Shown: positions 2,630-30,190 of the stretch, in pieces | How the letters are laid out: each line of letters begins with the position of its first letter | How positions within the stretch are numbered: position 1 is the first letter of the stretch | Source of the DNA: a virus | Reading direction: 5' to 3' (one strand) | Length of the DNA: 30,630 nucleotides | IMG/VR virus record: IMGVR_UViG_3300050014_000225 | Span: 1 to 30,630 of that record | Position numbers and translations under genes: made by a program | Notes under the pieces: generated by a model | The model's input: the letters and a program-made list of their open reading frames with translations, nothing else | Told to the model about the DNA's origin: nothing | Databases searched by the model: none

Positions 2630-2642
2630 CGAAGTTACTATT

Positions 2643-2834: not shown

Positions 2835-2860
2835 ATATTCTCCTTAATTAATTGTATGGT

Positions 2861-2888: not shown

Positions 2889-2893
2889 TGTTG

Positions 2894-3019: not shown

Positions 3020-3020
3020 T

Positions 3021-3538: not shown

Positions 3539-3543
3539 TAACC

Positions 3544-4335
3544 TTACCCCCTGTGAAAAATTCTCCCTATTAAGTTTTTCAAGTATTCGATACAGATTGC
3601 TTTCTTTTGTTCGTCGGTTAACGATTTTGAAAGATCACCGACTTGATTCATTAACTCGTTTTTTCTGATTTCCAGTTCTCCAAGGTTTTTCTTCTGAGAG
3701 TCAATGGTATCGTTTAATTCATTTATCGTTTTGTTGGCGGCAGCAAGTTGTTTACTTAAATCTTCAATTTTTAAAACTTCATTGGCGGACTCAGCCATAA
3801 GCCGTTTAACTGTCTCGTTGCGCTCTTCTCTGATGGAAGTTATCTGATTGTTCAAATCGACTATTTGCTGGTCTCTTGGGTCAACCTGTGGGGTCGGAGG
3901 AGTAACTACAGGTTCTGGGTCATTAATGTTTTTAGCTCTTAAGCCACCTAGAACATTCTTATATGAATGATTAACAAAATGGCAAGGTGTTCCAAGCGGA
4001 AAATTTTGGTCGAATGAGTCAAATTTATTGGTGTCTCCGACTCCTTTGGCGATTGCTATGTGACCGTATTGTCCTATTCCAGTCCCCCACACAATAATAT
4101 CACCTTTTTGAGGGACATAACTTGGAGTGTTGGGTATTTTTTCTAGTTCTGGGCAAGCGTTCCAATAATCAACAGCGTTTCCTCTAGCTTTTCCAGATAT
4201 ACCGACAACCTCAGTGAAGAAAGCCTTAACAACATCAACACATTGATTGCCGTAAGCTCCGTCGGCATCTAAAAACTTTCCATCATATTTGCTGAAAAAT
4301 TGGTCAGTTTTGTTATAAAAATCTGATCGTGTCAT
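3544..4335 (-). CDS. CHAP-domain endolysin with C-terminal coiled coil
   Basis: A 263-residue murein hydrolase. The N-terminal CHAP domain (about residues 1-135) shows catalytic Cys32 in GNQCVD, GDIIVWG at 78-84, catalytic His92 in YGHIAIA, and a SFDQN segment typical of the end of the fold. CHAP enzymes cut peptidoglycan as amidases or endopeptidases. A proline-rich linker follows (near 143-150), then a long heptad-like charged region (about 155-240) where a wall-binding domain would normally be. That arrangement is unusual; the coiled coil may oligomerise the enzyme. No signal peptide is seen, so release depends on a holin. AAAGGA precedes the ATG. Confidence 0.88.
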   Translation of the reverse strand: MTRSDFYNKTDQFFSKYDGKFLDADGAYGNQCVDVVKAFFTEVVGISGKARGNAVDYWNACPELEKIPNTPSYVPQKGDIIVWGTGIGQYGHIAIAKGVGDTNKFDSFDQNFPLGTPCHFVNHSYKNVLGGLRAKNINDPEPVVTPPTPQVDPRDQQIVDLNNQITSIREERNETVKRLMAESANEVLKIEDLSKQLAAANKTINELNDTIDSQKKNLGELEIRKNELMNQVGDLSKSLTDEQKKAICIEYLKNLIGRIFHRG

Positions 4336-4794
4336 TTATTCCTTTCCATCAGACGCTATGACCGTAAATTCCTCGGTTTCGTAAGTCGTCGTGACTGTTC
4401 TTAGTTGATTAACTACTACTTGAGTAATGTTGCGAATTTTGTATTCCCCTGCAGGTAGAGTTTCAGGAATTATTACTTTAACGTCTCGAACGTGGCAACC
4501 AGGCTCTAATTGAGCTAGAGCTGGCTCTGTTCTGAAAATAATACCGTCTACAAAATCTCTTTGTATGGAAAGAGGATGATCGTAATATTTGCAATAATCG
4601 TATCTGTAAGTAACATATTCACCATTTTTGAGAACCTTACTCCCAATAATTGGCATTGGAGAGTTTTTAACTACCAGAGTTTTAACAGGAGCAAATAAAA
4701 GATAACAAATATATCCTATTAGAGAGATGCCTAAAATTATCGTTACCCACACAGTCCACACTAATAATTTATGATTTTTCATCTCTTCTTTCAT
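4336..4794 (-). CDS. membrane-anchored protein of the lysis region
   Basis: A 152-residue protein with one strong N-terminal membrane span (about residues 10-33, LVWTVWVTIILGISLIGYIC). A beta-rich outer domain follows, holding cysteines at 68 and 100 and ending in VTTTYETEEFTVIASDG. Type II or signal-anchor topology is expected, with the domain outside the membrane. The ATG overlaps the preceding stop (ATGA), and the endolysin starts right after its stop. Position suggests a role at the cell envelope in lysis or exclusion, but no spanin or exclusion family is recognised. Confidence 0.6.
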   Translation of the reverse strand: MKEEMKNHKLLVWTVWVTIILGISLIGYICYLLFAPVKTLVVKNSPMPIIGSKVLKNGEYVTYRYDYCKYYDHPLSIQRDFVDGIIFRTEPALAQLEPGCHVRDVKVIIPETLPAGEYKIRNITQVVVNQLRTVTTTYETEEFTVIASDGKE

Positions 4795-4970
4795 TTTCTA
4801 ACAACGAGAGCGATCCAAGCCACCGCTACAGCCGTTAAAATTAATGATACCATACCAAAAACTATTACTTCGACTAGTTTAATAGCATAAAGTTTGTCCG
4901 AAGTAACACGTTCCTGTTTTGTTACTTCGGTACAGCGAAGCTCTTCGGATAATTGTTCTTTTGTTTTCAT
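4791..4970 (-). CDS. 59-residue single-span membrane protein, lysis-cassette candidate
   Basis: The N-terminal half is hydrophilic and charged (MKTKEQLSEELRCTEV and on). The C-terminal half is one hydrophobic helix (about residues 33-57), with a short RK end. GGAG lies before the ATG. The stop overlaps the start of the next membrane protein (ATGA). A small tail-anchored protein beside an endolysin could be a holin partner, antiholin or anchor. No family is recognised. Confidence 0.55.
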   Translation of the reverse strand: MKTKEQLSEELRCTEVTKQERVTSDKLYAIKLVEVIVFGMVSLILTAVAVAWIALVVRK

Positions 4971-4971
4971 T

Positions 4972-5811
4972 TTATTCTCCAGCTATCCAACCACCACCAA
5001 TATCGGCGGAAGTTCTGTTAATTATATTTGTTGTCCTAGTAAGTGTTTGTCCGTACCAGTTATCTATTGCTCGGGCTGAGCCAGAGGCGTCAACATCAGT
5101 AAAAGTTGTTTGAACTAATTTGCAGTTTGCAGGTGTTCCTAAATAATTTAAGTAAAAAGGGGAACTCGCAGTTACAGCAGAAAAAACGAAATATTGTAAT
5201 ACTCCCTGACTGGTTGCGTTTGACGATATGTTTAAACTTGTATTTACATTTAATGTTTGACCAGAAACCATTGTAAATACTCCTGCTCCACTACCAGTTG
5301 TGCAAACGAGGTTATCGCAAGTAATACCAAATGGTCCAGCAGTAGTAATATTTCTAGCTAAGATACATAATTTTCCACAAGTTAAAAGATCTGCCAAAGT
5401 TAAAGTAGCATTAGATAGGTTCATTGCAATAGTCCCAGGATAACTAAATCCTGCTGAGGTGAATGTTTGACTAGCAGATAAATTTAAAACTGGTAAAGTT
5501 CCTGTTGGAGTTCCAGCTAACGTTACTCCACCAGCAGAAGATAAAACTCCTGATGTATTTGTCATCGCTCCTTGTAAAGTTGCTCCACCGCTTACGGTTA
5601 AAGTTTGACTACCAAGGGCTAAAGTACCAGCGTTTCCAGTCATATCCAAAGTAGTACAAGCCGAGGCAGCATCAACAGTTACAGTATTTACCATTGTAGC
5701 GTTTATAATAGCAGTATCACCAGCAACAGGGTGACCAGCACCACCCCAAGTGACGTTAGACGACCAGTTCCCACCAAGAGCCACCGCCGTGTATGAAGCT
5801 ATAGTACACAT
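4972..5811 (-). CDS. beta-solenoid tail or receptor-binding protein
   Basis: A 279-residue protein made of short threonine-, glycine- and asparagine-rich strands with repeated LxLS, TVSGGATLQG and TLTLADLL patterns. This is typical of right-handed beta-helix virion proteins. Early lines (ALGGNWSSNVTWGG, GDTAIIN) resemble the start of secreted or tail beta-helix proteins. Cysteines appear in the second half. The start has GAAAGG upstream and overlaps the 50-residue gene. It lies at the end of the tail module, next to the lysis genes, where host-binding proteins are common. Confidence 0.6.
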   Translation of the reverse strand: MCTIASYTAVALGGNWSSNVTWGGAGHPVAGDTAIINATMVNTVTVDAASACTTLDMTGNAGTLALGSQTLTVSGGATLQGAMTNTSGVLSSAGGVTLAGTPTGTLPVLNLSASQTFTSAGFSYPGTIAMNLSNATLTLADLLTCGKLCILARNITTAGPFGITCDNLVCTTGSGAGVFTMVSGQTLNVNTSLNISSNATSQGVLQYFVFSAVTASSPFYLNYLGTPANCKLVQTTFTDVDASGSARAIDNWYGQTLTRTTNIINRTSADIGGGWIAGE

Positions 5812-6950: not shown

Positions 6951-7158
6951 AATTTAATCCTGTCGGGTCAGTTGCGATGTTATCAAAATTATCGTCGCCA
7001 TCACACCACATTATTTTTGCTCCATTAGAAGAATCAACTCTTTTGATTTGCCACACGGCGGTTGCCTCGTCAGCCCCTGGAGGAGCAGAACAAATATAAG
7101 TGTATGCACCGTCAGTGATAATCTTCTTTGATAAATTTATTCTGTCTTGGTTTCTCAT
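6943..7158 (-). CDS. small conserved-type phage structural protein, 71 residues
   Basis: The pattern YTYICSAPPGADEATAVWQI, then KRVDSSNGAKIMW and DGDDNFDNI, resembles a short protein type found in many phage tail modules. Those proteins have an AYTY...APPG...WQI signature and a D/N-rich loop before the end. Its function there is not known to me. The ATG overlaps the stop of the 1115-residue gene (ATGA). Confidence 0.55.
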   Translation of the reverse strand: MRNQDRINLSKKIITDGAYTYICSAPPGADEATAVWQIKRVDSSNGAKIMWCDGDDNFDNIATDPTGLNYV

Positions 7159-10100
7159 TTTCCTACCTTTGATTTTAACGCTTTTAGTTGTGCTGATCTA
7201 AGTTTTACTGGTGCTGATACTTTGCTAGACGTAGTATAATTTGTTGATCTGGGAGCAGTTAAGTTGTTGAACTTCATCTTTAAAAAAGACAGATTGGGCG
7301 AACTGCTGGAAGAACTATAGGTTGAGGCTGGGAGTCCAGGAAGACCCATCTCAGATCTTACGGAGTTAGTGTTTGCTGTACTTCTGTTCCAGTAAGCGAC
7401 TAATTGAGGATGAGCTTTACTAAATCTCGTTCTTGCTCCAGTTCCTGATGGCAAAGCGTAATATTGGTCTAAAAGAGATTGCTCAAAAGGTGTAGCTGAA
7501 AAACCCGTGTTTTGCGCTGCTCCAGCGTCTTTCCAGAATTTGGAACTGGTATCCCAATAATCAAGAAGCCATTGGTTGTCTTTGAGAATGACACTCTTCG
7601 TTTCATCTCCCTTAGGAAGTGCTTGATAAGTTAAAACAGTTTTCTGTTGGTCGTCAGGCAACATATAGAAGGGATCAATCGGGTTGCCTGTTTTTAAAGC
7701 TAACTCTCTTTGCATTTCATTCTGAGTTTGCAGTATTTGTGGATAAGCCAAAAGAGTTGATGATTTTTCTATCGTCTTCCAATTAGTGTTGTCAGAAGTC
7801 ATCTTATTGCCATAAATAGCAGTGTAAGTTGCTTGCTCTGAAGGATTCATACGAGCAAAATATTGATCTCTTGTATCATAGTAGATTTGAGAGTCTATTT
7901 GAGAGTTTTTACTTTTAAGACCAGTCAAAGACTGAACAACATCTGTTGAATCCTTTGATCCCAATACTTGATTGGCAGTTGAATAAAATCTTGAAAATGG
8001 TGGTTGCCGCATAATCCACAAAGCCCAAGGATTTGCTGTTTTTGTAACCTTTTCTGCTCCAGTAAAATCTGTAGAAGTAGTCTCGTTATACCCAATTAAT
8101 TTTGCGATAGACGGACTAAGTTTAGCAAGATTTTCAGCAACTCCAGTTGCATTAGTAATGTCCTTAATATCTTTGTTCTGATACAAGTCCTGACCAGATT
8201 TTGCCTCGTATGGAATCTTAATCAACGGAGAAAGCATATTCTCAGCGACGCTAGTTGGACTGGCAAGAGTTTGAGCAAAGTTCTCTAATGGGTTTCCTAA
8301 TCCCGAAGCATAAATAGGATTACCTTTTTCATCGTTGCCTGTTTTAATGTTAAAAGTGTTGTTTAGAAATTTTGGTCTGTTGGCTTTTTCTTTGTCCGTT
8401 TCTGGAACTCCGACTTCTCCTTGTAAAGCATTTTGTGTTTTGAATAATCCAGCATATTTTCCTGGCTGTCTGAAAAGTTGTTCAGCTTGAAGAACCATAT
8501 TCTTTGAAGTCCAAGTGTAAAAAGGAAACAAGCGTTTAAGACCAGCTTTCTCCATATCACTCAAATTTTCATAGTCGAAGAGAAATTTCTTAGTTCTCTC
8601 GGCTGCGGTGATGGGATCGCCAATCATATCTAAATTAGCAATAAAATTAAGCGCTCTATCGGAGTTTTCAATGTAACTACCAACTCTTTTGCCAACATTC
8701 GCTTTGCTTATGATATTGTTAATGTCGAAATAACCAGCACTACTCAGAACGCCGTTTTCTTTCATCATTGTTCTTAATGAGTCGATGGTGTAATCTTTGC
8801 CGCCAAGGTTTACGACTTCATCTCCGAACTTACTACTCATTATCTTGTTGGCTATTAAGTTCTTCTTTGGACTTAAGGTCTGAAATAGCCCAACATCAAG
8901 AATATTAGACCAAATATTACTCATCTTGTTGCGAGTATGAAAACTTGGGAAATATGTTGTTACTGATGTTTTAAAGATATTTTGCAATTTATCATAGATT
9001 GAAGCTATTTTTCCCAACGCTTCGTGTTTTGTTGCAGGAAGTGTTTCAAACATTCTGGAGACATAAGAAGCAACATTATCAGGAATACTTATTCCGCTTA
9101 ATTCTTTGACACCTGGAGGTTCAGTCCAAGTTCGTGATGAACGAGTGATGGCAGGATTTGGGATTTCTTTAGTTACTGGTGCAAATTTCTCCATTCCAGG
9201 AAGAATACCATTTGTGTCTCTGATTTTGATAGTCGATTGTCTGCCCTGAACTTGACCAACATCCATTAAGAAGTTGTGTTTAGCGATAGCTTGCTCTGAT
9301 GACATTCTGCGAGTAGCAAGAATCTTTTCAATGTCGTACTCAGGAGTTAAACCAAGTTTTTGTTCTATCTCTGTTAAAGTTCCTTCTAAGGTACGCTCTT
9401 TAGCAAATTTAGTCTCCGTTCCGCTGGCTATTTGGTTGAAATATGACTTAATTTTAGCTTGGTCGTTCTTTCCTGTATAAAGGTGAGTAACATAATCTTT
9501 CATCGCCTCAGTACTTAATCCAGACGCTTGCTCTTTAGCTAGAATATCAGCGAACTCAGCTTTGGCTGCTTCGTGTGCTGCCCTAAGTTTATAAGGCATA
9601 GCGGCAGCCATTCTGCCTGTTGAATCTTCCAAGGATGTAGTAATAAGTTTTCTTTCTTCTTTTGAAAGACCTTTGAACATAGCATTATAAGTATTGGCTA
9701 TCTCAAGGTGTTTTTCTTTAGTCAAATCACGAAAAGCCTGCTGTTGACGCTTGAAAGTTAAATTGTCGACAATGCTGGCATCTCTACCAACTTTGCTTGT
9801 TGCAGTTTTGATAATCTTTTCTACAGGATTAGTAATTTTATCAGTTAAAGGAATTGTGCGACCAGCGATTTTAATTCCACCCCTATCCACTAGATCTGGA
9901 GCTTTTTTAATGGCTTTTTCCATCGCCTGTTCTACTAAAGTTCTTTCCGCTACTTTATTCACATCTTTGCCCATTGACTCAGCAAGTTTGAGAAACTCTG
10001 TTCCGCCTTTTTGGGTAAGGACTTTTTCTCCGCCCTTGGTAGCGATGGTAATTCCTTTTCCAGTTCCAAGTGTTAAGTATGTAGTTGGATCTAAAACAAT

Positions 10101-10502
10101 GTCCCCAAGAAGTCCCAAAGCGCCTTTACCTGATATTTGTTTGCCACCAGTAAAAGGGACGGTAACGTGACCAAGATCACCAACTCCAGCCGTTGTTAAA
10201 ACGTCTTTTGTGGTGGTTTTCTTTTTTCCGCTAAATCCTTCCCATAATGCAGAGAATGGATTGGTATTAAAGGTTTGACCCTTTGCTGATTTAGCAGCTT
10301 CATTATAAAGATTCGAAACAGCATAACCTGGACGAGAAACTTTATCACCGATCCAACTGAGAGTTGGCAAGGTCGCTCCCTTTATCTTGTCCCACAAAGA
10401 AGGAGTGTATTTGGGAGCAACAGGAATAGTCGGCTGTTGCGCCGATTGTGCCTGTTGATTTCTGAGTTGCAACATTCTTTGATTGAATTCTGTTTGATTC
10501 AT
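7155..10502 (-). CDS. very large virion protein, candidate internal or ejection protein
   Basis: At 1115 residues this is the largest gene in the window. The N-terminal 100 residues are glutamine- and proline-rich with a WIGDKVSRPGYAV segment. A long helical, charged middle follows. Around residues 500-700 come TYFPSFHTRNKMSNIW and then LFPFYTWTSKNMVLQ and LFRQPGKYAGLF. The FYTW...N..LQ...QPGKY pattern recurs in large proteins of phages encoded near tail genes, whose biochemical role I do not know. The C-terminus is serine-rich, then basic (KLRSAQLKALKSKVGK), as in proteins packed with DNA. No protease, lysozyme or polymerase motif was seen. Position among adaptor and tail genes suggests a particle component delivered with DNA. 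Confidence 0.6.
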   Translation of the reverse strand: MNQTEFNQRMLQLRNQQAQSAQQPTIPVAPKYTPSLWDKIKGATLPTLSWIGDKVSRPGYAVSNLYNEAAKSAKGQTFNTNPFSALWEGFSGKKKTTTKDVLTTAGVGDLGHVTVPFTGGKQISGKGALGLLGDIVLDPTTYLTLGTGKGITIATKGGEKVLTQKGGTEFLKLAESMGKDVNKVAERTLVEQAMEKAIKKAPDLVDRGGIKIAGRTIPLTDKITNPVEKIIKTATSKVGRDASIVDNLTFKRQQQAFRDLTKEKHLEIANTYNAMFKGLSKEERKLITTSLEDSTGRMAAAMPYKLRAAHEAAKAEFADILAKEQASGLSTEAMKDYVTHLYTGKNDQAKIKSYFNQIASGTETKFAKERTLEGTLTEIEQKLGLTPEYDIEKILATRRMSSEQAIAKHNFLMDVGQVQGRQSTIKIRDTNGILPGMEKFAPVTKEIPNPAITRSSRTWTEPPGVKELSGISIPDNVASYVSRMFETLPATKHEALGKIASIYDKLQNIFKTSVTTYFPSFHTRNKMSNIWSNILDVGLFQTLSPKKNLIANKIMSSKFGDEVVNLGGKDYTIDSLRTMMKENGVLSSAGYFDINNIISKANVGKRVGSYIENSDRALNFIANLDMIGDPITAAERTKKFLFDYENLSDMEKAGLKRLFPFYTWTSKNMVLQAEQLFRQPGKYAGLFKTQNALQGEVGVPETDKEKANRPKFLNNTFNIKTGNDEKGNPIYASGLGNPLENFAQTLASPTSVAENMLSPLIKIPYEAKSGQDLYQNKDIKDITNATGVAENLAKLSPSIAKLIGYNETTSTDFTGAEKVTKTANPWALWIMRQPPFSRFYSTANQVLGSKDSTDVVQSLTGLKSKNSQIDSQIYYDTRDQYFARMNPSEQATYTAIYGNKMTSDNTNWKTIEKSSTLLAYPQILQTQNEMQRELALKTGNPIDPFYMLPDDQQKTVLTYQALPKGDETKSVILKDNQWLLDYWDTSSKFWKDAGAAQNTGFSATPFEQSLLDQYYALPSGTGARTRFSKAHPQLVAYWNRSTANTNSVRSEMGLPGLPASTYSSSSSSPNLSFLKMKFNNLTAPRSTNYTTSSKVSAPVKLRSAQLKALKSKVGK

Positions 10503-16296: not shown

Positions 16297-18228
16297 CTAA
16301 TTTATTTTAGTTTGATATTCTATCGCACCACGATCAAACGCTCCTATTCTTGGATTTCCATAGAAATCTGAGTATATTCCAGTGTCTACTCCAGAATTTA
16401 TTGCAGGCGAACCAGCAGACAAACTCATATCAGTTGGGGGGCTGACTAAAAGAGGATTGGTTGTTAAATCGTTCGCTCCAGCGGAGATTCCACTTACAGC
16501 ACCAGTGGCGTAGCCGTAAATAGTGTTGTAGTCCTCGGTCAGTGTGGCTGTGCCTGCTTCTACTATTCCGTAATTAAAACCCTGAATAATATTATTTCTC
16601 ATGTCGACTGTGACAGTATTTCCAGTGGCGAAGTTTACTGCGTTTCCAGTTTGAGCAGCCGAGTAAATTGTATTATTCAAAAGTGTATATGTCCCAGTCT
16701 CTCCTAAATAAACCAAGGCTATCGTTCCGTTGGTAGTGTGAGAAAAAAGGTTGTTATACATTTGAACTTGTGCTCCTCCGACGTGAGCCACAGCTGATTT
16801 CTTATTATTTTTTGAGATACAGTTTTTAATTACTCCAGTCGTGGTGTCGTGGTAGCTAAATCCGTCTCCGTCAGACGATTCTCCAGTTACACCGTTGTTT
16901 ATAGAACTACAACCGTCAAAAACTACACCAGTCCAAGTTCCGTGGACGTTAAAACCGTCTCCGTTGGAATCTGAGATATAAATATTCTTGCCTGTGAATC
17001 TGTCGCCATCTCCAAATAATGTAATGCCGTTGTAAGCAATTAAAGGGTCTCTCGAGGCGTTGATAAACCGAGCATTGGTGAGGGTTAAATCAGTCGAACG
17101 AACCGTTGTACTATTAACGATATACATTCCATCTTGTTGGGTATCAGTTGAATAGATTTCGGACATTGTGACATTGGTACAACCTTCTAATTTTGTACCT
17201 GCTAGGTAATCTCCGTCAGTCGTACAGTTTTGCATAATTAAAGTATCGCTTAAAATAACGTGTATTCCATTGCCACCAGATGAGTCGCTGGCAGTGATAT
17301 TCTTAAGAGTTATGCCCGTAGGTAGATTAACACCTGAAATATTGAATAATATATTATCTCCACCGTTACCACTAGCCGCAACTCCGTCAAGAGTAACATT
17401 TTTACAACCTAAGAATCTAAACCCATAGTTAGAAGTTCCAGCAGCGTTATTACTTGCGGTACTATTAGTAATCGTCATTCCATTTGCAAGTGTCCAGTCA
17501 AATCCCTTAGCTGTTCCGCTACTAAACGATGAACCTGATATATTAACATTCGTGGCTAATACTCCAGGAATTCCTAAAAGTCCATACTGAACATTACTAT
17601 TAAATGTACAATTTAAAATTGTAAAATTATTTAACGATGTACAAGTCCCGACACTAACTCCTCGATTCATACCACTAAAATTACAATGATCTAAAGTGAT
17701 ATTTGAAAGATTACCACCTGAAATTGACGCTCCAATCGCAGAAGCAGTAGCCGTACTGTTGTAAATATAAATATTCACATTACTTGTCGTTATATTGAAA
17801 GCGGAGGTAGTCGCCCCAGTGACATCTATATTTCTGATTGAGATATAACTTCTTCCTGCTAAGTTGAATCCTCTGGTTTGTCCTGTAGCGTCAATTATAG
17901 GATTCGCTCCAGTTCCATAAGCGTCAAACTTAACAGGTAATCCAGCTGTTCCCGACATCCCTACCGTTACTATCCCAACATAAGTTCCGCCTCTTTTAAA
18001 GAGAACATTATCTCCAGCATGTATTGTCCCATCTCCTGTAGCAGCACTGACTTTAGTGGTTGTTTTCCAAGCTGTCGCAGGAGTTAGTCCGTTACCAGTG
18101 TCATCGGCGGAGGCTGCATCAACATAATAAATAACTCCTGTCCTTTTATTGACAAAACTTTTGAACATTCCACTAATTTTTCCGAAGATACCTGATGAAG
18201 GAGTTCTTCGTCTAAAATTGTTAAACAT
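16297..18228 (-). CDS. right-handed beta-helix tailspike, candidate depolymerase
   Basis: A 643-residue protein. After a short basic head segment (about residues 1-30) comes YYVDAASADDTGNG and GDNVLFKRGGTY, the usual entry to a pectate-lyase-like parallel beta helix. From about residue 100 to 600 short strands repeat (NITLDHCNF, NVNISGSSFSSG, VTLDGVAASGNGG, IVNSTTVRSTDLTLTNARF). The end, GNPRIGAFDRGAIEYQ, is a typical close of such bacterial or phage right-handed helices. Tailspikes of this fold cut or bind surface polysaccharide. Active-site residues cannot be named from sequence alone. Confidence 0.8.
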   Translation of the reverse strand: MFNNFRRRTPSSGIFGKISGMFKSFVNKRTGVIYYVDAASADDTGNGLTPATAWKTTTKVSAATGDGTIHAGDNVLFKRGGTYVGIVTVGMSGTAGLPVKFDAYGTGANPIIDATGQTRGFNLAGRSYISIRNIDVTGATTSAFNITTSNVNIYIYNSTATASAIGASISGGNLSNITLDHCNFSGMNRGVSVGTCTSLNNFTILNCTFNSNVQYGLLGIPGVLATNVNISGSSFSSGTAKGFDWTLANGMTITNSTASNNAAGTSNYGFRFLGCKNVTLDGVAASGNGGDNILFNISGVNLPTGITLKNITASDSSGGNGIHVILSDTLIMQNCTTDGDYLAGTKLEGCTNVTMSEIYSTDTQQDGMYIVNSTTVRSTDLTLTNARFINASRDPLIAYNGITLFGDGDRFTGKNIYISDSNGDGFNVHGTWTGVVFDGCSSINNGVTGESSDGDGFSYHDTTTGVIKNCISKNNKKSAVAHVGGAQVQMYNNLFSHTTNGTIALVYLGETGTYTLLNNTIYSAAQTGNAVNFATGNTVTVDMRNNIIQGFNYGIVEAGTATLTEDYNTIYGYATGAVSGISAGANDLTTNPLLVSPPTDMSLSAGSPAINSGVDTGIYSDFYGNPRIGAFDRGAIEYQTKIN

Positions 18229-18229: not shown

Positions 18230-18595
18230 TTATCCTAAGAAGTTAATTTGGACGATACATCCAGCTGAAGCTGATCTTATATACAAAACTCTGTCAGGCG
18301 AGGCTGGGAGTTGTCTGGCTACAATTACAGTTCCTATAACAAAATTTCCTTCTGTTAAATTTCCAGCAACGGAGTCTGTATCAGCGACACTTCCTTTGGC
18401 TGCTAATCCTGAACTTAATGACATTCTAAAATCAGTACTTCCGTAAACTTCAACAAAAGAGGCAGTATTAGGAATTGGTATTGCTCTGTTTGTGTCAGCT
18501 GTTGTGAGGGTAACTTCTACGCCAGTTGTCACCGTAATGTCAGAGTATGAGTCGTACTCCTTGTCGAACTTTGAGACTCTGCTTGCTTTAGCCAT
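18230..18595 (-). CDS. hypothetical virion-associated protein, 121 residues
   Basis: The sequence is beta-rich (DITVTTGVEVTLTTAD, FVEVYGSTDFRMSL, RVLYIRSASAGCIVQINFLG) after a charged start (MAKASRVSKFDKEYDSY). It overlaps the end of the dehydrogenase-like gene by eight bases and precedes the tailspike. The shape fits a small jelly-roll or decoration domain, perhaps an attachment or chaperone for the spike. No family is recognised. Confidence 0.5.
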   Translation of the reverse strand: MAKASRVSKFDKEYDSYSDITVTTGVEVTLTTADTNRAIPIPNTASFVEVYGSTDFRMSLSSGLAAKGSVADTDSVAGNLTEGNFVIGTVIVARQLPASPDRVLYIRSASAGCIVQINFLG

Positions 18596-19337
18596 TTTTC
18601 TCCTTAATTAATTTATCGTTATATTTTAATAATTCTTCGGTAAGTTCTGGTTTACCAGCCCATTCAGACCACGCATACACGTCTTTTGGGATACATTTTG
18701 ATTTGAATCCCCGTTTATCAGGATATATGTGGGTGAACCATAGTGTGAATCTTGGGTCATCTCCGTAAACAGCTTGTTGAATTGTGTAATAGTCAACCCC
18801 GTTTTTTTCACAGGCATCATATAACTCCTGACATTGTGCTACTTTAAAGGCAATAGCACGATTTTCACTTAATTTAATTACTTCAGCTTCTCTGTTTGTA
18901 ACTTGTCTAATCGAAATATTAGCGTTATACACGGTCTGGTAAAGTTCTATCAATTTGCGGCGATTCTGCGGTCTACCTCCTATTATTAAGAAACTTCTAT
19001 CAGTTTCATCTAAGAGAGGATGTGCAACTGTCTCGCCAAGGTACTCAGGCTGCATCACAATGTTCTTTTTGTATTTATCCTCTAAATAATCACAAGTTCC
19101 TGGTTGAACCGTTGATCTGATGACAATCAGAGGGGAATTACAATTTTTCACAACGTCTTCAACTATTGAAGTATCAAGCGAACCATCTGGGTTATTTGGT
19201 GTTGGGACACAGACGAAACTTACGTCAGCATCGTTGTTTGAAAACAATCCTTCGTTTGGGTCTTGTATCACTGATTCTGGGAACAAATAGTACATCGCTT
19301 TTCCAACCCATCCAATTCCTATAATTTCTATTTTCAT
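18588..19337 (-). CDS. shortened nucleotide-sugar (UDP-glucose/GDP-mannose type) dehydrogenase
   Basis: A 249-residue protein of the UDP-sugar 6-dehydrogenase family, which oxidises a nucleotide sugar to its uronic acid with two NAD. Visible: a Rossmann start G7-IGWVG12; CVPTP at 43-47; STVQPGT at 75-81; PEYLGE at 97-102; ENRAIAFKV at 158-166 in the middle helix; and CIPKDV at 215-220, holding the catalytic cysteine (Cys215). The family usually has another 120-150 residues after this cysteine forming the third, sugar-nucleotide-binding domain; here only about 34 remain. It overlaps the glycosyltransferase by an ATGA. The protein may act on an unusual substrate, pair with another subunit, or be a non-catalytic relative. 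Confidence 0.8.
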   Translation of the reverse strand: MKIEIIGIGWVGKAMYYLFPESVIQDPNEGLFSNNDADVSFVCVPTPNNPDGSLDTSIVEDVVKNCNSPLIVIRSTVQPGTCDYLEDKYKKNIVMQPEYLGETVAHPLLDETDRSFLIIGGRPQNRRKLIELYQTVYNANISIRQVTNREAEVIKLSENRAIAFKVAQCQELYDACEKNGVDYYTIQQAVYGDDPRFTLWFTHIYPDKRGFKSKCIPKDVYAWSEWAGKPELTEELLKYNDKLIKEKNG

Positions 19338-20059
19338 TTTTTCTCCTTAATAGCTTCAACATAAATCTTATTTTCTTCTAAAGAGGCGTAACAATCTTCT
19401 TTTCCGATTAATGGTGTTTCTCCCAAGTGTTTTAGGTCTATTGTCGGGTCTGCCCAAAGCTGAAATCCTTTTTTGGCGGCACTGACAAAGAAGTAAAAAT
19501 CTTCTGAACATTTTCCTGGAATAAACTGAAAGTAGGGGTAATCCATCAGTTCTAAAACCTCTCGGTGGATTAAGGCACATCCAAATCCTGCGGTACTGAC
19601 TTTAAAAGGTTTGACTGCATCCATTCCTGGAAGTGCGTACATTCCAATATAGTCGTTTTGGTTATATTCGTTGGGATTTTCGTGAACTACTTTTGATCCG
19701 TTCTCTAATTCTGGGTCTCTAAGCCATAAAACAGGGAAATGTTTGCCCCCACGTTGGTAATAAATTCCTGTAACCATTTTGCTTTTTTGCTTTTTTGCTA
19801 CATCAAGCAATTTAACCAATGTGTCTTTTGGAAAGGTCATATCTGAATCTATCCAAAATGCCCACTCGTTGTCTGTTTTTAAAAAATCACAAGCCAATGA
19901 ATTTCGGGCTGAATCAATTAAAGTTCTTTCTGTAACTCCGATGTGATTTATTTTAATTTTTTTGGAAACTGAATAACCAACCATCGCCGCAACACTTTGA
20001 AAAGTTCTCGGAGAAACCGATTCTGCTATCGGACATAAAAGCGCAACGGTGTTATTCAT
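19334..20059 (-). CDS. GT-A fold glycosyltransferase (family 2-like)
   Basis: A 241-residue protein. It starts with a nucleotide-binding strand (NNTVALLCPIAESVSPRTF) and has the metal-binding DSD motif at residues 71-73 inside EWAFWIDSDMTFP. The acceptor side follows (VSTAGFGCALIHREVL, CSEDFYFFVSAAKKGF), with a SEDF acidic pair in the usual catalytic-base position. There is no membrane span. It would transfer a sugar from a nucleotide donor to a glycan, glycoprotein or lipid. It lies between a zinc-ribbon gene and the dehydrogenase in a glycan cassette. Confidence 0.82.
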   Translation of the reverse strand: MNNTVALLCPIAESVSPRTFQSVAAMVGYSVSKKIKINHIGVTERTLIDSARNSLACDFLKTDNEWAFWIDSDMTFPKDTLVKLLDVAKKQKSKMVTGIYYQRGGKHFPVLWLRDPELENGSKVVHENPNEYNQNDYIGMYALPGMDAVKPFKVSTAGFGCALIHREVLELMDYPYFQFIPGKCSEDFYFFVSAAKKGFQLWADPTIDLKHLGETPLIGKEDCYASLEENKIYVEAIKEKK

Positions 20060-20264
20060 CTTTTTTTCCCAATATTAACTTAATGCAGTATGGATTTGTC
20101 AGAATAAAAAACCACAACTGAAAGAAATTTAAATGTGTTGGTCTGTATCTGCGACCGCCGCAAGAACAATAAACGTCTCTAATCATTTTCTTTTCTTCTG
20201 TTACTTTCTTGCAATCAAAACACCTGTAAAACTCAAATAATGGCTTTTCTTCAATTTCTTCCAT
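20052..20264 (-). CDS. small zinc-ribbon protein with hydrophobic C-terminus
   Basis: A 70-residue protein with knuckles CFDC at about residues 15-18 and CSC near 33-35, followed by a hydrophobic segment (LNFFQLWFFILTNPYCIKLI) that may be a membrane or hydrophobic dock. The ATG at 20264 is preferred over an in-frame ATG at 20294, because AAAGGAAA lies in front of it. It overlaps the methyltransferase by 14 bases and the glycosyltransferase by eight. No known function. Confidence 0.5.
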   Translation of the reverse strand: MEEIEEKPLFEFYRCFDCKKVTEEKKMIRDVYCSCGGRRYRPTHLNFFQLWFFILTNPYCIKLILGKKDE

Positions 20265-20934
20265 CTGTTTCCTTTGGTAATTTAATAAATTCATAACCTA
20301 ATTCTTGAACTGTGTTTCTAAGATAATTAGCCATCCAAATTTGAATATTTTGTGGCATTATCTGAATCCACCAAAAATTCATCATTTTAACCGCTCTGTT
20401 TCTAGTCATTTGAAGATCAACAACTCTTCCTAAGTTTTTTCTCTCTTCTATCTCCCAAGAATTGGCATAATTTCTCATTGTTCCTCTAATTCCGTAGAAA
20501 GAAAAATCATTTATGATATTAATGTGATCTCTATAACCAAGTTGCGACGATCCGCCATCCCCAGGCAACCAAATTTCTAATATTCCGCCAACTTTTAAAA
20601 CTCTAGCTAATTCCTTAAAGCACTCAAACCAGTTCGGAACGTGCTCCAGAATCATATTGGCAATTATGAAGTCGAACTCATTGTCTTTAAACGGAAGTGG
20701 TTTTGTTAAGTTGTGTACACAATCTATACCTTCTCCTTTGAACATATCCAAGTTGACTACGTTCTTGAATTTATAGACTGTTGTGCCGCAACCAAGATTT
20801 AAAACTTTTCTACCATTGAAATCATAATTTGGCGGATACTTCACATAAGTTGACGACGAAGTTCTGCCAGGATTTTTTATGGAGTATTTTACTGAATTAA
20901 TCTTGTCTTTTAATCCTTTAAGCACTTTTCCCAC
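20251..20934 (-). CDS. SAM-dependent methyltransferase (type 11)
   Basis: A 227-residue protein with a class I methyltransferase core. Motif I is VLNLGCG at 44-50, and an acidic end of strand 2 is seen in NLDMF at 61-65. PLPFKDNEFDFIIANMILEH at about 79-98 is the strand-4 and catalytic loop typical of type-11 enzymes. FKELARVLKVGGILEIWLPG follows. The final 100 residues are helical. Within this cassette it likely methylates a sugar or glycan end. It starts at GTG with AGGAG close in front, overlapping the upstream glycosyltransferase by 25 bases. Confidence 0.85.
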   Translation of the reverse strand: MGKVLKGLKDKINSVKYSIKNPGRTSSSTYVKYPPNYDFNGRKVLNLGCGTTVYKFKNVVNLDMFKGEGIDCVHNLTKPLPFKDNEFDFIIANMILEHVPNWFECFKELARVLKVGGILEIWLPGDGGSSQLGYRDHINIINDFSFYGIRGTMRNYANSWEIEERKNLGRVVDLQMTRNRAVKMMNFWWIQIMPQNIQIWMANYLRNTVQELGYEFIKLPKETDGRN

Positions 20935-21953
20935 CTTTCTCCTATCTCATTCCAGTCTAGGATGCCTTCTGGGGCATTTTTAGATATCTGGTAGTGTAAA
21001 TCATCGTCTTTGCAAAGATTTACGGTTGCTTCGACGTATTTTTTAACCCATAACCAAATATCGTGAGGATAATCTTCTGTGATTACTCCAGTTTCGTTGT
21101 GACGGATAAATTCTGGGTTTGCCCCAATGTTTGACGATACAACTGGAAGTCCACACGCCTGAGCCTGCAACAGAACATTTGAACAAATTTCTGGATAAGT
21201 ATTTGGCATTAAAAGAATCCATGAAGTTCTCATTATTTCTGCTAAAACTTCCTGTCTGACGGGCTGCATCACTCTTGCGCCTAAAGATTCCATTCCTGAC
21301 AAGAAACCATTCTGTTCTTTGTTGTTTTCTTTGTCGTGAAGAGTTTGGCTTGAGTAAATATAAAGCTCGGAATCTGGGAATTGTCTTTTAATGTTATTCC
21401 ACGTCTGTTCTACAGGTAATACTCCTTTAATAAGAGCAGAAGCCATCACAATACGATACTTCTTTCGTTTCTTATAATCTCCTGGGTAAAACATTTTTTT
21501 ATCAACTCCGTTTGGGATGACAACAAACTTTTCTTTTGGAATGTCATAAAACTCGGAAAATGATTTTTTGCAGTAGTTTGATAACGCTATTATTTTGTCA
21601 ACGTGCTGGTATGAAGAATCTTGTAAGTACCTAAAGTCTACAATGTCGTGCAACCACCAAACTACTTTTGCTCCGATACTTTTTGAATAACCTACAATTT
21701 GATTGTTCAACCCGTTTCTATTGATTACAATTACATCCCATTTGGGAATTTTCTCAGTCCAGTCAAGAGGAAGATAAGTTACACCTTTCGTGACTATTTT
21801 CTTCTTACAGTCACAACTGACGTAAACTTCGTGTCCCTTACTTGCTAGAAACTGAGGAATAATCGTAAGACTGTTTAATATCCCACCAGTCGGCTTTTTT
21901 GATATGCGATCTGGCGAGAAATTACTTGTCGCATCTGTAAATAAAATCTTCAT
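20910..21953 (-). CDS. GT-B fold glycosyltransferase (family 4-like)
   Basis: A 347-residue enzyme with two Rossmann-like halves. The N-terminal half opens MKILFTDATSNFSPDR with a GGILNSL glycine-rich acceptor loop and has VVWWLHDIVDF near 103-113. The hinge FVVIPNGVDKKMFYPG is typical of GT4. The donor half includes LLQAQACGLPVVSSNIGANPEF near 265-286, whose final Glu is the phosphate or ribose contact expected in the family. AAAAGGAG precedes the ATG. It is the first gene of the glycan cassette in transcription order. Confidence 0.86.
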   Translation of the reverse strand: MKILFTDATSNFSPDRISKKPTGGILNSLTIIPQFLASKGHEVYVSCDCKKKIVTKGVTYLPLDWTEKIPKWDVIVINRNGLNNQIVGYSKSIGAKVVWWLHDIVDFRYLQDSSYQHVDKIIALSNYCKKSFSEFYDIPKEKFVVIPNGVDKKMFYPGDYKKRKKYRIVMASALIKGVLPVEQTWNNIKRQFPDSELYIYSSQTLHDKENNKEQNGFLSGMESLGARVMQPVRQEVLAEIMRTSWILLMPNTYPEICSNVLLQAQACGLPVVSSNIGANPEFIRHNETGVITEDYPHDIWLWVKKYVEATVNLCKDDDLHYQISKNAPEGILDWNEIGERWEKCLKD

Positions 21954-25094: not shown

Positions 25095-25280
25095 TTAAGC
25101 GCCACCAACTGGTTCACTCTGTCGATCTAATCTCTTTTTAAGCAAATTCATCATTTCTACAACTTTAGGAGAAACCATATCTTTTACTTTTGAAGTTACT
25201 TCTGATTCTCCAAGAGATTTTTTCAATCTTGTGCCGACGTTTTCTTTGTCGTCTTGAATTGTAATTGTTATTGTACTCAT
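25095..25280 (-). CDS. hypothetical small protein between portal and scaffold, 61 residues
   Basis: It begins with a beta strand (STITITIQDD). Charged helices follow (NVGTRLKKSLGESE, VVEMMNLLKKRLDR). The start overlaps the portal stop (ATGA). It lies between portal and scaffold, so it may be a minor head-assembly factor. No family is recognised. Confidence 0.5.
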   Translation of the reverse strand: MSTITITIQDDKENVGTRLKKSLGESEVTSKVKDMVSPKVVEMMNLLKKRLDRQSEPVGGA

Positions 25281-27199
25281 TTGTTTCCTTCAGTTTTTAT
25301 TGGTGTTGGCTCTGTCATTGGGGTTGCCGCCATTTGTGATGGCTGCAGTCCAGCTTCCGCCTCTATCTGTCTTTTAACATCCTCAGGTAAATCTTTGTAA
25401 GAAATTGATTCAGATATTTTTTGTAATGGAGATGGTTCTGGTGGAGCAACTGGAGCAGGTGGTGGAGGAGGAGTGCCAGCAGAAACAGCATCGATTGGTT
25501 GACCATTTTCATCTACTGTTGGTTGATTGCCATCTAACCCTGATGTTTCATCAATCTGAGTATCAAATAAACTGTCATCCTTTTTATCGAATGATTCCAA
25601 AACCCATTTACGAAGTTGGTTTCTACCTTTAACTGGAATTGTCAAATCCTGATTAAAAGTTTTGTAAAGCAAAATATTGTCCTGACGAAGTTGGTTTTTG
25701 TTTACTGGAGAAGCTGAGTTTGGTTGAATGTCAAAATCATATTCACCTTGAATTTGTTCTGGAGTTTTTGTGATCCAGTCGGCAGGAGTTTTACCCTCAC
25801 CAGCGATTTGAATACAAATATCTTCAGTCATATATTGTTGGACAACTTGGAATAATTTGTTCATAACTCTTCTAACAAAATCTTCAACTTGGCGTTTGTC
25901 GTCTTCTTTTCTGTTATTGGCAGAACCCTGAACCATCTGGGCTTCGCCGAGAGTTGTTTCAGTTTTAGGAATTACCGATGTGTCGTACTCAGAAACTCCA
26001 GATATTTTTGTCATATCTTGAATTATTTGGCTTGTTGTCATTGGGACAGTTTGATTTACTGTCGGATTTTCCAACGCCCTTAAGCCTGATTCTTCGTCAA
26101 GTTCAACCAAAGTATTATTTGGATCAGTTAGTTGAGATTTTTGAGTAGCAGTCATTTTGCCTTTATTGTAGGTGAACTTCTGGACAAAACTTCTAGCGTG
26201 GGTTGTTTGAATTGACTCCATTAAATCAAGTTCTTTTTGTTGGGTTTCCATCGGCTCAATGTCACCTATTGGAAAAAGACAATCTGGAACATTATATCCG
26301 TCAAGTTCCTCGTAAGGAAATTCTTTGTGGTCATATGGATTACTGCGAGTATTTAAAACAATATCCTGATCTGGAACGATGTACATTGAGGTTGTAACAA
26401 CGCCGTAACGATTCTTTTCCCAGTATTGGTAGTATTCTAATCTCTGTTCGTCTTCTTCGTCGTTTTCTGATTTTTCAAGTTTAATATCTTTATCAATTGT
26501 GGCATTTCCTTTTAAATTACCAGTATTTTTAAACTTTGGATTTGATTTTACATCTGCCAAAGGTTCAACTATTTTTTCTGCGCACCATCTTGAACCGTTT
26601 AAACCGTCGGTTGACTCTGGGTCGTAAATGAAAAAACCACGAGGATAAGCAACTCGTTTAATATAGAACCTATCAACTAATATTTTTACTTCTTCTTCAT
26701 TGGGAGTTTCTTTTCCAGTAACAAAGTTTTTAACTTTATCAATAGTTTTGTTAATGATTCCCTTTTTCTTGTTATCTTTCTGGTTATCTTCAATCTCGTA
26801 CTCAAACCCGATTTTAACAATACCACGACCAAAGGCGACTTTATCCAAAACAGCCTTTTTAATTTCATATTGCATCCCAATTTCTTTAGGTAAATATTCC
26901 ATCGTTGCTCGAACTGAATCGATATTAGCCAAAGTAATCTCTAAGGCGTCTGGAGTTATTTTTCTTTTAGGAGAAACAATTACTTCTGGATCTCTGAAGT
27001 AAAGAAATGGTAGTTTAGCTCGTATAATTGCGTGAATATATGGAACGGTGATTTGATCTAATCTAATATCATCGTCGTCGTAGTGTTTAATTTGTAAATA
27101 ACGTCTAAATTTCTCGAATTTAGTCTTATTTTCTTTTTCCCAGAATTTTTTACCTCTGGCAATTCTATTTTTAATGACTTTTGTGTCAGTTTTTGTCAT
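25277..27199 (-). CDS. portal protein
   Basis: A 640-residue protein with portal features. A charged N-terminal part (RGKKFWEKENKTKFEKFRRY) is followed by TVPYIHAIIRAKLPFLYFRDPEV, typical of the region where podovirus-like portals begin their wing. Later come PYEELDGYNVPDCLFPIGDI and METQQKELDLMESIQTTHA, a long helix as in the stem and crown. NNTLVELDEESGLRALENP comes near the loop that touches DNA. The C-terminus is proline-rich (GTPPPPPAPVAPPEPSP). It follows the terminase in the usual order, apart from the three small genes between. It forms the 12-fold ring through which DNA passes. Confidence 0.88.
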   Translation of the reverse strand: MTKTDTKVIKNRIARGKKFWEKENKTKFEKFRRYLQIKHYDDDDIRLDQITVPYIHAIIRAKLPFLYFRDPEVIVSPKRKITPDALEITLANIDSVRATMEYLPKEIGMQYEIKKAVLDKVAFGRGIVKIGFEYEIEDNQKDNKKKGIINKTIDKVKNFVTGKETPNEEEVKILVDRFYIKRVAYPRGFFIYDPESTDGLNGSRWCAEKIVEPLADVKSNPKFKNTGNLKGNATIDKDIKLEKSENDEEDEQRLEYYQYWEKNRYGVVTTSMYIVPDQDIVLNTRSNPYDHKEFPYEELDGYNVPDCLFPIGDIEPMETQQKELDLMESIQTTHARSFVQKFTYNKGKMTATQKSQLTDPNNTLVELDEESGLRALENPTVNQTVPMTTSQIIQDMTKISGVSEYDTSVIPKTETTLGEAQMVQGSANNRKEDDKRQVEDFVRRVMNKLFQVVQQYMTEDICIQIAGEGKTPADWITKTPEQIQGEYDFDIQPNSASPVNKNQLRQDNILLYKTFNQDLTIPVKGRNQLRKWVLESFDKKDDSLFDTQIDETSGLDGNQPTVDENGQPIDAVSAGTPPPPPAPVAPPEPSPLQKISESISYKDLPEDVKRQIEAEAGLQPSQMAATPMTEPTPIKTEGNK

Positions 27200-27531: not shown

Positions 27532-27693
27532 CTACAACTGGATACTTTTAATAATCTCTTTTGCAATCACTGGAACACCATTTTTAACTACAATTTCAAC
27601 AGATCCATATCCGACTTGGCGGATAAGATTAATCAAGGCAATTTCTTCTCGTTGAAGAGAAACTATCTCAATTTTACTGTTGAATGTGACCAT
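27532..27693 (-). CDS. DUF2292/YezD-like small protein
   Basis: A 53-residue protein matching the DUF2292 pattern: a helix EEIALINLIRQVGYGSVEIV, then VKNGVPVIAKEIIKSIQL. The LI..I.YG.V...V.NG.PV pattern is characteristic. The family is widespread in bacteria and its role is unknown; it has been thought to bind nucleic acid. The ATG overlaps the stop of the C2H2 protein (TAATG). It ends right before the promoter and terminator elements. Confidence 0.7.
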   Translation of the reverse strand: MVTFNSKIEIVSLQREEIALINLIRQVGYGSVEIVVKNGVPVIAKEIIKSIQL

Positions 27694-27992
27694 TATTTAT
27701 GAGTTCTCATATGAGAGCCTAATCCAGCTTTTGAATCACAAACTTTTCCACAAACAGGACATTGAAATTCTGATGTTGGTTCAACAACTTCTTCAACTGG
27801 TTTACTTGTTGGCGCAACTGAGGGTGTTACCTCTTTAAAATAAATCTTGCCTTCACCATTGTAGCGCTGCATAAAATGAATTCCTTCTTCTTCTGTGACT
27901 TGTTTCTCTTCCTGTGGTTGGAAGTTAGTTACTACTTTTCCATCAATACCAACTGCATTTACCTCAACGAACGAATTGTTTTTGATTAACAT
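27693..27992 (-). CDS. protein with C-terminal C2H2 zinc finger
   Basis: A 99-residue protein. Residues 1-55 form a beta-rich domain (NSFVEVNAVGIDGKVVTNF, GEGKIYFKEV). A proline/valine/glutamate-rich linker leads to a classic C2H2 finger, C78-x2-C81-x12-H94-x3-H98, with the conserved leucine at 91 and the RTHK end. C2H2 fingers bind DNA or RNA and are rare but known in bacteria and phages. It directly follows the large terminase in the operon and could touch packaging DNA; that is inference. Confidence 0.72.
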   Translation of the reverse strand: MLIKNNSFVEVNAVGIDGKVVTNFQPQEEKQVTEEEGIHFMQRYNGEGKIYFKEVTPSVAPTSKPVEEVVEPTSEFQCPVCGKVCDSKAGLGSHMRTHK

Positions 27993-28001: not shown

Positions 28002-29852
28002 TTATTTACTAATATATTTACTTCTTCTACTTTGAATCTCTGCTAAAGTTCCTGGAACTGAGTTTCTCGGAATATAACTTGGATCGACCGACACAGTATA
28101 TTCTCCCTTAAGTCCCCAATAAGCTAAAGCTGTAGCCATTATTAAGTCATCGTGGTAACCAGTCACCGCCCCGAAACCATTCTTAGAAGCGTCTTCAGTG
28201 TAAACGAATGTTCTAAGTTCTGAAATTATTCTTTCATCGTTCAGTTTGGCTTTGTTCTCACGCATCTTTTGAAGAAACGAATCTAATAATGTTTGTTTGT
28301 TGGCGTGGGTTGTTTTCCAGCCGTACTTCTCAATCTTTTTTCTGGAAACTGAATCAAACACTTCCCGCTTATAAATATTGGAATAACCAGCATCTCTTAA
28401 TTTTGTGAGTGTTGCCATTCCAGCGGCGTTGACTTCAATATTGGCTTTGGCGTTTCGGTACATTCTGCCAATTTGAGTAATCTTACTCGCTAGTTTATCG
28501 GCTGGTAATCTGTCTGTCCAAACCGCTACAACTTCTCCAGTTGCTTTTGAAACAACTACAATTCCTGATGGATCAACTACTCCCTCTGACGGATCAATTC
28601 CCATTTGGTATTCATCCTGAGTGTCCATTTCTTTAAAGATTGTAATTCCCTCAGTTACTCGAATCGGTTTGTTCTTAAGAAGATTCTGTTCTTGAATGTA
28701 CTCAACAGGAAAGTATGCTCCCTGAGCTGTGAATGTAGTTTCATCCCATATCCCGTAAACATATTGACGTTTCCAGGTTTCTGTTGAACCTTTTAAAAGA
28801 TTGTCGATGTACTCTTGACCCAAGTGTTTGGCGTTGTCCAAAGTGGAAGATTCGAAAACGTGATAGTCTGGATCAGATTCTTGTTTGTAAACTCTATATC
28901 CCCAAAACAAAGCTGGATTACAGGTCATCATAATCTGATGGACATACTTCGGTTCTCCTGGAGCTGTTTCGACTTTTCTTCTAAGACGACCACGAAGTCC
29001 GTGGAATACTGCCTCAGGAATTTCTTCAACCTGATCGATGGCGGCGAAACCCAAGTTAAGTGATTTAATTTCATTCTCTGAAACAGTGTCAAGGTGACGG
29101 AAAATTAACTGAGAGCCATTCTTTAAGTAAAGTCTCTGTTCTGAACGTGAATAGCTCTGAATCATATTCGGTGGACAGACTTCAAAAAAAGTTTGTTGGG
29201 TTGAGTCCTGAAGTTCCTGATAAGTTAAACGACCAAGTAATCCATAATTTCCAGGATAAGAAAGGTGCTGCATTATTTTGTGGCAAAGAATTAAAGTTTT
29301 ACCACTGTTACTGACAATGAAATCATTAGCATAAAACATATGGCTAATACAGTTTACTGTAATATCATAAACATTCTCTATTCCAAGTTTTTCATACTTT
29401 GTTATTGGGTGATAAGAATCAAATTTAATAAGTCTAATATTTTTTCCACCACCATCTAAATAATCAATTATTTTTCTTACAGACCAGAGTTCGTTTCTAT
29501 CAGGGTCGCCACTATCAACTAAATACTCGTGCTCTTCGCTGCCGTCTATATAAAAACCAAGTTCAGTTATTATACGATAAACTTGTTTTTTGCCACTATC
29601 TATTTTTCGTATAACGGTTGTCGGAATTGATCTACCACCATAATATACTCCCCAAATCACATCCCCAACTTTTACTTTTCCCATAGTTGTAGTTCCGCTG
29701 GGTGTTGCAATAATTGTTCTAGCTGGCAAACAACCAAAACCTCCTGAAAGTAATGGAAAACGAACATTTGTTTTATAAAAGTCCTCCTGCATCTTGGAGA
29801 GTTCCCATTCTTTTTCAACTGTGCCATCTTTTGCTTCGTAACTAATTTTCAA
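28002..29852 (-). CDS. terL: terminase large subunit carrying an in-frame intein
   Basis: 616 residues as encoded, 474 after removal of residues 41-182. It is the ATPase and nuclease motor that packages DNA through the portal. The joined Walker A is GGFG+SGKT. The Walker B equivalent is AAIDQVEEIP with Asp273 and a catalytic glutamate. The C-terminal RNase-H-like nuclease has an acidic GIDPSEGVVDPSG strand (about residue 435) and the DD pair in GYHDDLIMATALA near 580. Order (small subunit before, portal after) agrees. Without protein splicing the P-loop is broken, so the enzyme should be inactive until the intein leaves. The start ATG lies two bases after the stop of the small subunit. Confidence 0.95.
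   Translation of the reverse strand: MKISYEAKDGTVEKEWELSKMQEDFYKTNVRFPLLSGGFGCLPARTIIATPSGTTTMGKVKVGDVIWGVYYGGRSIPTTVIRKIDSGKKQVYRIITELGFYIDGSEEHEYLVDSGDPDRNELWSVRKIIDYLDGGGKNIRLIKFDSYHPITKYEKLGIENVYDITVNCISHMFYANDFIVSNSGKTLILCHKIMQHLSYPGNYGLLGRLTYQELQDSTQQTFFEVCPPNMIQSYSRSEQRLYLKNGSQLIFRHLDTVSENEIKSLNLGFAAIDQVEEIPEAVFHGLRGRLRRKVETAPGEPKYVHQIMMTCNPALFWGYRVYKQESDPDYHVFESSTLDNAKHLGQEYIDNLLKGSTETWKRQYVYGIWDETTFTAQGAYFPVEYIQEQNLLKNKPIRVTEGITIFKEMDTQDEYQMGIDPSEGVVDPSGIVVVSKATGEVVAVWTDRLPADKLASKITQIGRMYRNAKANIEVNAAGMATLTKLRDAGYSNIYKREVFDSVSRKKIEKYGWKTTHANKQTLLDSFLQKMRENKAKLNDERIISELRTFVYTEDASKNGFGAVTGYHDDLIMATALAYWGLKGEYTVSVDPSYIPRNSVPGTLAEIQSRRSKYISK
29307..29732 (-). mobile_element. mini-intein in the P-loop of the large terminase
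   Basis: 142 residues (41-182 of the precursor) with no endonuclease domain. Block A: Cys41 first, CLPARTIIATPSG, then GKVKVGD. Block B: IDGSEEHEYLV, where the histidine of the usual TxxH is kept and the threonine is Ser. Block F: ENVYDITVNCISHMFYAND. It ends FIVSN, so the last residue is Asn182 and the next, first of the C-extein, is Ser183. The residue before the Asn is Ser instead of the usual His, a variant known in some active inteins. Removal restores GGFGSGKT exactly. Confidence 0.93.
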
Positions 29853-29854: not shown

Positions 29855-30190
29855 TTACTCCCTGATTACAATTCTTAAATCCTGATTAATACGAGCATCA
29901 ACTTCACTTCTTTCGATGTAGCCACGGGACTTTCCTTTGGTTTTTAGAAAGAAGATCAGAGCCGCTGTGTTGCCCTCTGCGATCTGTTTATGCAAAACAC
30001 TCTCGGCATCATCTAAAAGTATCTCCTGAACCTCGTCACAGGCTTTAGCGAACTCTTTATCAGTATTATATAGACGGTCGTAAGTAGAACGGGATATTTT
30101 TAAGTGACGGCAGGTTTGAGAAATATTCCCCTGATTCAAATCAAGAATGGTAGGAAACTTTTTAAGTGCTCTTTCTACATATTTAGCCAT
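29855..30190 (-). CDS. terS: terminase small subunit
   Basis: A 111-residue protein with a helix-turn-helix N-terminus: LNQGNISQTCRHLKISRSTYDR at about 18-39 has the spacing of phage DNA-recognition subunits. A helical oligomerisation part follows (EFAKACDEVQEILLDDAESVLHKQIAEGN), then AALIFFLKTKGKSRGYIERSE. The FxLKTKG pattern is typical of small terminases. It recognises the packaging site and regulates the large subunit. The ATG overlaps the upstream zinc-ribbon gene's stop by one base. Confidence 0.88.
   Translation of the reverse strand: MAKYVERALKKFPTILDLNQGNISQTCRHLKISRSTYDRLYNTDKEFAKACDEVQEILLDDAESVLHKQIAEGNTAALIFFLKTKGKSRGYIERSEVDARINQDLRIVIRE

Follow-up and report, generated by a model that had tools for sequence, protein, structure and literature searches.

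By sequence comparison and structure modelling, the terminase large subunit gene (terL) of the virus record IMGVR_UViG_3300050014_000225 is interrupted by a class 1 mini-intein exactly in its Walker A loop. In our preferred reading, to which we give a probability of about 0.88, this element restores GGFGSGKT through constitutive and fast splicing, descends from a LAGLIDADG homing intein and is now a near-neutral parasite. We analysed the whole 30,630-nucleotide stretch of this record, hereafter the window, and compared its terminase and intein with those of related viral contigs (designated by L numbers).

The interrupted terminase gene

The window reads SGGFG / C...SN / SGKT, with the insert lying between GGFG and SGKT of the Walker A motif (Table 1). 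Two relatives have an empty site: L002 (55% identity over 477 amino acids) reads SGGFGCGKS with no insert and L095 (52% identity) reads SGGFGCGKT, gap-free at the insertion position. Many further relatives read GGxG-xGK without insert, so that we are dealing with an in-frame insertion that has uninterrupted homologues. Since the site is empty in a homologue whose exteins are 55% identical, the intein boundaries are exact. The alignment with L002 and L095 thus confirms the first-pass annotation, which had placed a 142-residue intein at 29307-29732, splitting the Walker A loop into GGFG and SGKT; the spliced length of 474 residues that it named agrees with the sum of the two exteins. From the sequences of the window and of the empty-site relatives, splicing would yield GGFGSGKT and with it a proper Walker A loop. 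We considered an assembly artefact and rejected it: the homologues with exact empty sites, the unbroken frame and the residues present all speak against one. A run of 142 codons without a stop has a probability of about 3e-6 at the local composition.

Table 1. Position of terL, of its intein and catalytic residues, and of flanking packaging genes in the window
Feature	Position	Strand	Remarks
terL, terminase large subunit precursor	28002..29852	-	616 aa, TTG start, intein-interrupted
N-extein	29733..29852	-	residues 1-40, C-terminal ...FPLLSGGFG; GGFG (first half of Walker A) at 29733-29744
Mini-intein	29307..29732	-	residues 41-182, 142 aa, predicted class 1
Cys1	29730-29732	-	
Block B, Ser65 (SxxH, here SEEH)	29538-29540	-	
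Block B, His68	29529-29531	-	
Block F, Asp123	29364-29366	-	
Block F, His131	29340-29342	-	
Ser141	29310-29312	-	penultimate
Asn142	29307-29309	-	C-terminal
C-extein	28005..29306	-	434 aa, remainder of ATPase and nuclease domain; starts SGKT (29295-29306)
terL stop codon	28002-28004	-	
Probable terminase small subunit (HTH)	29855..30190	-	directly upstream of terL; phrog_309 E 4e-5, phrog_4044 E 7e-5
Portal protein	25277..27199	-	downstream of terL; phrog_156 E 1e-9

Identification of the host protein as a terminase large subunit relies on its Walker A motif, its terminase profile (the C-extein matches the PHROG families phrog_2, E 8e-26, and phrog_979), its alignment with L001-L005, and its small subunit and portal neighbours; portal homologues also occur in the L001 and L095 records. 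The other conserved TerL residues are intact, and the intein is in frame and stop-free inside this essential-type gene. At the TTG start, the N-termini of relatives L001 and L002 co-align, and GGGAG lies just upstream.

Elsewhere on the minus strand, a 99-residue reading frame directly after terL (27693-27992) has a C2H2 zinc finger at its C-terminus (PF00096, E 3e-6, above cut-off), an unusual placement between the terL and portal genes. Sugar genes span 18588-21953: a UDP-glucose/GDP-mannose dehydrogenase (18588-19337, where the match is confined to the later part of the NAD-binding domain), a glycosyltransferase of family 2 (19334-20059) and another of phrog_2170 (20910-21953). Also on this strand are a right-handed beta-helix protein, possibly a tail spike (16297-18228; PF13229, E 3e-22), a CHAP-domain protein, possibly a lysin (3544-4335), and an 1115-residue protein (7155-10502) for which neither Pfam nor PHROG gave a significant match.

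Intein sequence models match the insert weakly (TIGR01443, E 0.05; PF14890, E 0.009), and we therefore turned to BLAST, fold prediction and catalytic residues. BLAST matches the insert to the intein that L123 carries at this position (E 8e-18) and, over its full length, to a terminase intein of Caudoviricetes sp. vir335 in the phage collection (E 3e-5). AlphaFold run on the single intein sequence gave a pLDDT of only 35; a 16-sequence alignment was needed for a usable model, which is a confident HINT fold (pLDDT 93.6, pTM 0.86). The top structural matches of this model are the Ssp DnaB, Npu DnaE, gp41-1, Mtu RecA and Prp8 inteins and hedgehog autoprocessing domains, with Z scores of 15-19 against solved inteins over 122-135 of the 142 residues. 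The two BLAST matches and the fold make its homology to inteins secure.

Under the published class 1 residue scheme (PMC4031507), all catalytic positions are filled save the penultimate His, which is common in this class and not obligatory. The nucleophile at +1 is Ser, the first residue of the C-extein. In block B, His68 is conserved and Ser65 replaces the Thr usual in its kin, a conservative change. Ser precedes the final Asn (VSN), as the first-pass annotation had noted in pointing out a residue other than His. This leaves class 1 membership intact, because published class 1 phage inteins vary at that position: Ser, Gly and Lys are on record there, with Ser reported for class 1 mycobacteriophage inteins (PMC5050341).

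The same annotation had found no endonuclease, which our searches bear out: Pfam and intein models gave no endonuclease family match in the intein, and blocks B and F are separated by only about 45 amino acids, against about 240 in L123. At 142 residues, the element fits the usual definition of a mini-intein (no endonuclease domain, about 130-200 amino acids). Of the window ORFs that we ran against Pfam, none encoded a free-standing homing endonuclease either.

Lineage of the intein and occupancy of the P-loop site

Scanning viral contigs with the window intein alone returned no relative, and its relatives were reached through the terminase and through L123. With the TerL alignment, a genome-contig scan gave only four distant matches. 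The plasmid collection gave one weak match. One relative is L123 (IMGVR_UViG_3300023257_000962), whose TerL carries, at the same site, a 339-residue intein of the same lineage in which a LAGLIDADG_3 domain scores above the Pfam cut-off. Identity to the window intein is 39% over the N-terminal 114 amino acids and 47% over the C-terminal 34; in the alignment, the splicing halves of L123 correspond to the opposite ends of the window intein, with the endonuclease falling in the gap. Unlike the window intein, that of L123 keeps its penultimate His (HN/C) along with the endonuclease and has no block F His.

A third member of the lineage, in L174 (IMGVR_UViG_3300028276_000040), is a 161-residue mini-intein that resembles the window intein in its GGFG/SGKT site, its Ser+1, its block F His and its lack of both endonuclease and penultimate His (replaced here by Lys). 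However, it resides in a terminase of another family: the L174 protein aligns with the window TerL over only 26 residues, and its matches are terminase large subunits from phages of Rhizobium and Vibrio. A separate reading frame downstream of the L174 terminase looks like the nuclease part. Since the L174 terminase is divergent and the register is the same, we conclude from these alignments that the lineage has been transferred between distant terminases, entering the P-loop at an identical position.

As L123 carries a LAGLIDADG intein of the same lineage at the same site, the window intein probably descends from an endonuclease-bearing form, which is the most economical reading and agrees with the view that mini-inteins arise through endonuclease loss (PMC8966425). 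The ancestor would have been a LAGLIDADG homing intein aimed at the P-loop site of phage terminases, its endonuclease since lost. The opposite direction, with the endonuclease gained later in L123, is conceivable where two or three sequences form the basis.

The distribution of histidines in this group is reciprocal. L123 ends in ITHN and its block F (NESSCF) has no His; the window and L174 have a block F His (CISHMF and NESHTF) and end in IVSN and LCKN, without a penultimate His. A block F His and a VSN end also occur together in the vir335 intein, which occupies another site. This pattern agrees with the published idea that a block F His can stand in for an absent penultimate one (PMC5050341); with only three to four sequences, we take it as a lead rather than a rule. 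One could go further and propose that the His assisting Asn cyclisation moved to block F in the endonuclease-free forms, slowing or tuning splicing into a packaging timer once the homing drive was lost. We consider this extension quite unlikely.

A different picture emerges at the same site in L001/L094, the closest relative by extein (57%). Its 280-residue intein occupies exactly the same position and shows no significant match to the window intein (E 0.05-0.15 over about 44 amino acids); it matches instead those of L104, L128, L130 and L149, all at this site. We therefore rejected the idea that the L001 insert is the window intein enlarged. Because an unrelated second type sits there in L001 and others, the insertion site is, by these comparisons, a hot spot for two unrelated intein types. 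Related viruses differ in both presence and type of intein at the TerL P-loop: at least six changes are needed to explain where inteins are present on a tree built from 48 TerL C-exteins, or seven when the two types are distinguished.

Several other contigs deserve mention. L170, a contig partial at its 5' side, contains a partial intein of the L001 style (match from 566), and its C-extein starts with SSKT, not SGKT, so that the restored P-loop would be without Gly before Lys. The inteins of L128 (1063-1593) and L130 (542-1105), 177 and 188 amino acids long, are 94% identical and differ mainly by an 11-residue gap between blocks B and F, which is perhaps a size reduction in progress. In L178, a helicase-like reading frame (2542-5496) apparently holds two inteins, a LAGLIDADG one at GK/T of the P-loop and a second that starts after VDE (CLDGDTLITMENG...).

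Splicing and its possible control of packaging

How would the window intein leave its precursor? We infer that it splices, and in what order, from the class 1 pathway. It would remove itself from the TerL precursor and join GGFG to SGKT: Cys1 would attack the Gly-Cys bond (N-S shift) with the aid of block B Ser65-x-x-His68, the N-extein would pass to Ser+1, Asn142 would cyclise and an O-N shift would complete the extein bond. Cyclisation would most likely be aided by His131, given that the penultimate His is replaced by Ser. Splicing is probably constitutive and fast, by analogy with five mycobacteriophage TerL inteins that all spliced quickly when tested (PMC5050341), and either the loss of the penultimate His or the block B change from Thr to Ser could slow it. 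Because a folded domain of 142 amino acids separates the two halves of the Walker A motif, TerL should require splicing for its ATPase activity, and the unspliced form should be inactive. The first-pass annotation had likewise held that packaging cannot start before splicing, and the P-loop-splitting site supports by inference a need for splicing in ATPase activity.

Does this dependence make the intein a regulator? The same annotation had suggested a timer or stress-sensitive switch, and one may imagine a TerL that stays unspliced until a signal arrives (redox state, time after infection, binding of ATP or DNA), packaging being delayed until capsids are ready. Such a device would exploit an insertion that should block ATP binding until it is spliced out, and a changed penultimate residue does alter the splicing rate of a phage RDF intein (PMC5050341). 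Moreover, a mini-intein that lacks an endonuclease cannot drive its own homing, and its persistence could hint at a benefit. Control of packaging by an intein has been proposed for the TerL of cyanophage Mic1 (PMC7156551), and splicing as regulation is also in print for mycobacteriophage TerL and other phage inteins (PMC5050341). Nevertheless, we find a conditional switch unlikely in the window. In relatives whose TerL is 52-57% identical, the site is either empty or filled by an unrelated intein; the insert not being conserved among them, regulation would not be a shared need. Such patchiness argues against regulation as an obligatory function and, to judge from the empty-site relatives, the packaging motor can apparently do without the insert. 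The quick splicing of the tested TerL inteins also weighs against a switch, as does the N-extein near the junction (FPLLSGGFG), which has no Cys for a simple redox trap. Besides, homing endonucleases may favour P-loop sites simply because their DNA is conserved. No sequence feature that we examined indicates conditional splicing, and the timer or stress switch of the first-pass annotation is left without support.

Two other readings concern the nature of the domain itself. A decaying or dead intein would splice poorly, leaving a non-functional gene or mostly N- and C-cleaved fragments, and the two departures from canonical positions (penultimate His and block B Thr) could be seen as its marks. 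However, the reading frame and the remaining catalytic residues are intact, and loss of splicing in terL should kill the virus. In addition, the block F stand-in is present in the window, L174 and vir335, all of which lack the penultimate His, with the reverse in L123, and natural inteins without that His do splice (PMC5050341; see also Chen 2000, as cited in PMC4031507). A dead element is thus very improbable. The fold alone is common to hedgehog and bacterial intein-like (BIL) domains, so that an autoprocessing HINT domain other than an intein might be considered; this is hardly credible for an exact insertion in a conserved motif that has empty-site homologues, Ser as +1 nucleophile, Asn as its last residue and, at the same site, a relative with an endonuclease. 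We thus favour the constitutively splicing mini-intein, most likely a near-neutral parasite at present, any regulatory effect being secondary. It would be retained because exit is possible only by exact deletion.

Known inteins at comparable sites

P-loop inteins in TerL, inteins without an endonuclease and phage inteins with a penultimate Ser are already on record; new in our comparison is the 339-residue LAGLIDADG intein of the same lineage at the same TerL site in L123, together with the occurrence of this lineage in the divergent terminase of L174 and the second, unrelated intein type at the site in L001 and others. The mycobacteriophage inteins TerL1-a and TerL1-b (Kelley et al. 2016, PMC5050341) also lie in the Walker A loop, the former between the invariant Lys and Thr (GK/T) and the latter one residue away. 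The window insertion, GGFG/SGKT, is three residues upstream of K/T and corresponds to neither allele, and it lacks the active LAGLIDADG endonuclease of TerL1-b. In Acinetobacter phage vB_AbaM_ME3 (L189, KU935715, 2001-2411), we found a 137-residue mini-intein-like TerL insert, also without endonuclease, at the homologous P-loop position (GRR/CIPG...CHN/TGKT); unlike the window intein, it has a penultimate His and Thr+1. This insert is not annotated as an intein in the ME3 record, and none of the papers on ME3 that we searched mentions one.

The intein of vir335, a methanogen virus (BK063680), is 132 residues long and 27% identical to that of the window over the full length, sharing its penultimate Ser and block F His; however, it is near the C-terminal (nuclease) end of TerL and has Cys+1. 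Mic1 TerL also has an intein in the ATPase domain, but with a second one in the nuclease domain (PMC7156551). Archaeal VMA-b inteins likewise interrupt the P-loop of an ATPase, in their case the V-type ATP synthase A subunit, a cellular host protein unrelated to terminases, and their endonuclease may be active or inactive (PMC8966425).

A single packaging-ATPase site thus holds, in related viruses, two unrelated intein types, full-length and endonuclease-free forms of one lineage, or nothing at all. The class 1 mini-inteins described here, with Ser or Lys as the penultimate residue, add natural examples that are useful for splicing chemistry. The site lends itself well to tests of how homing inteins decay, and of whether P-loop mini-inteins are tolerated parasites or tuned switches.
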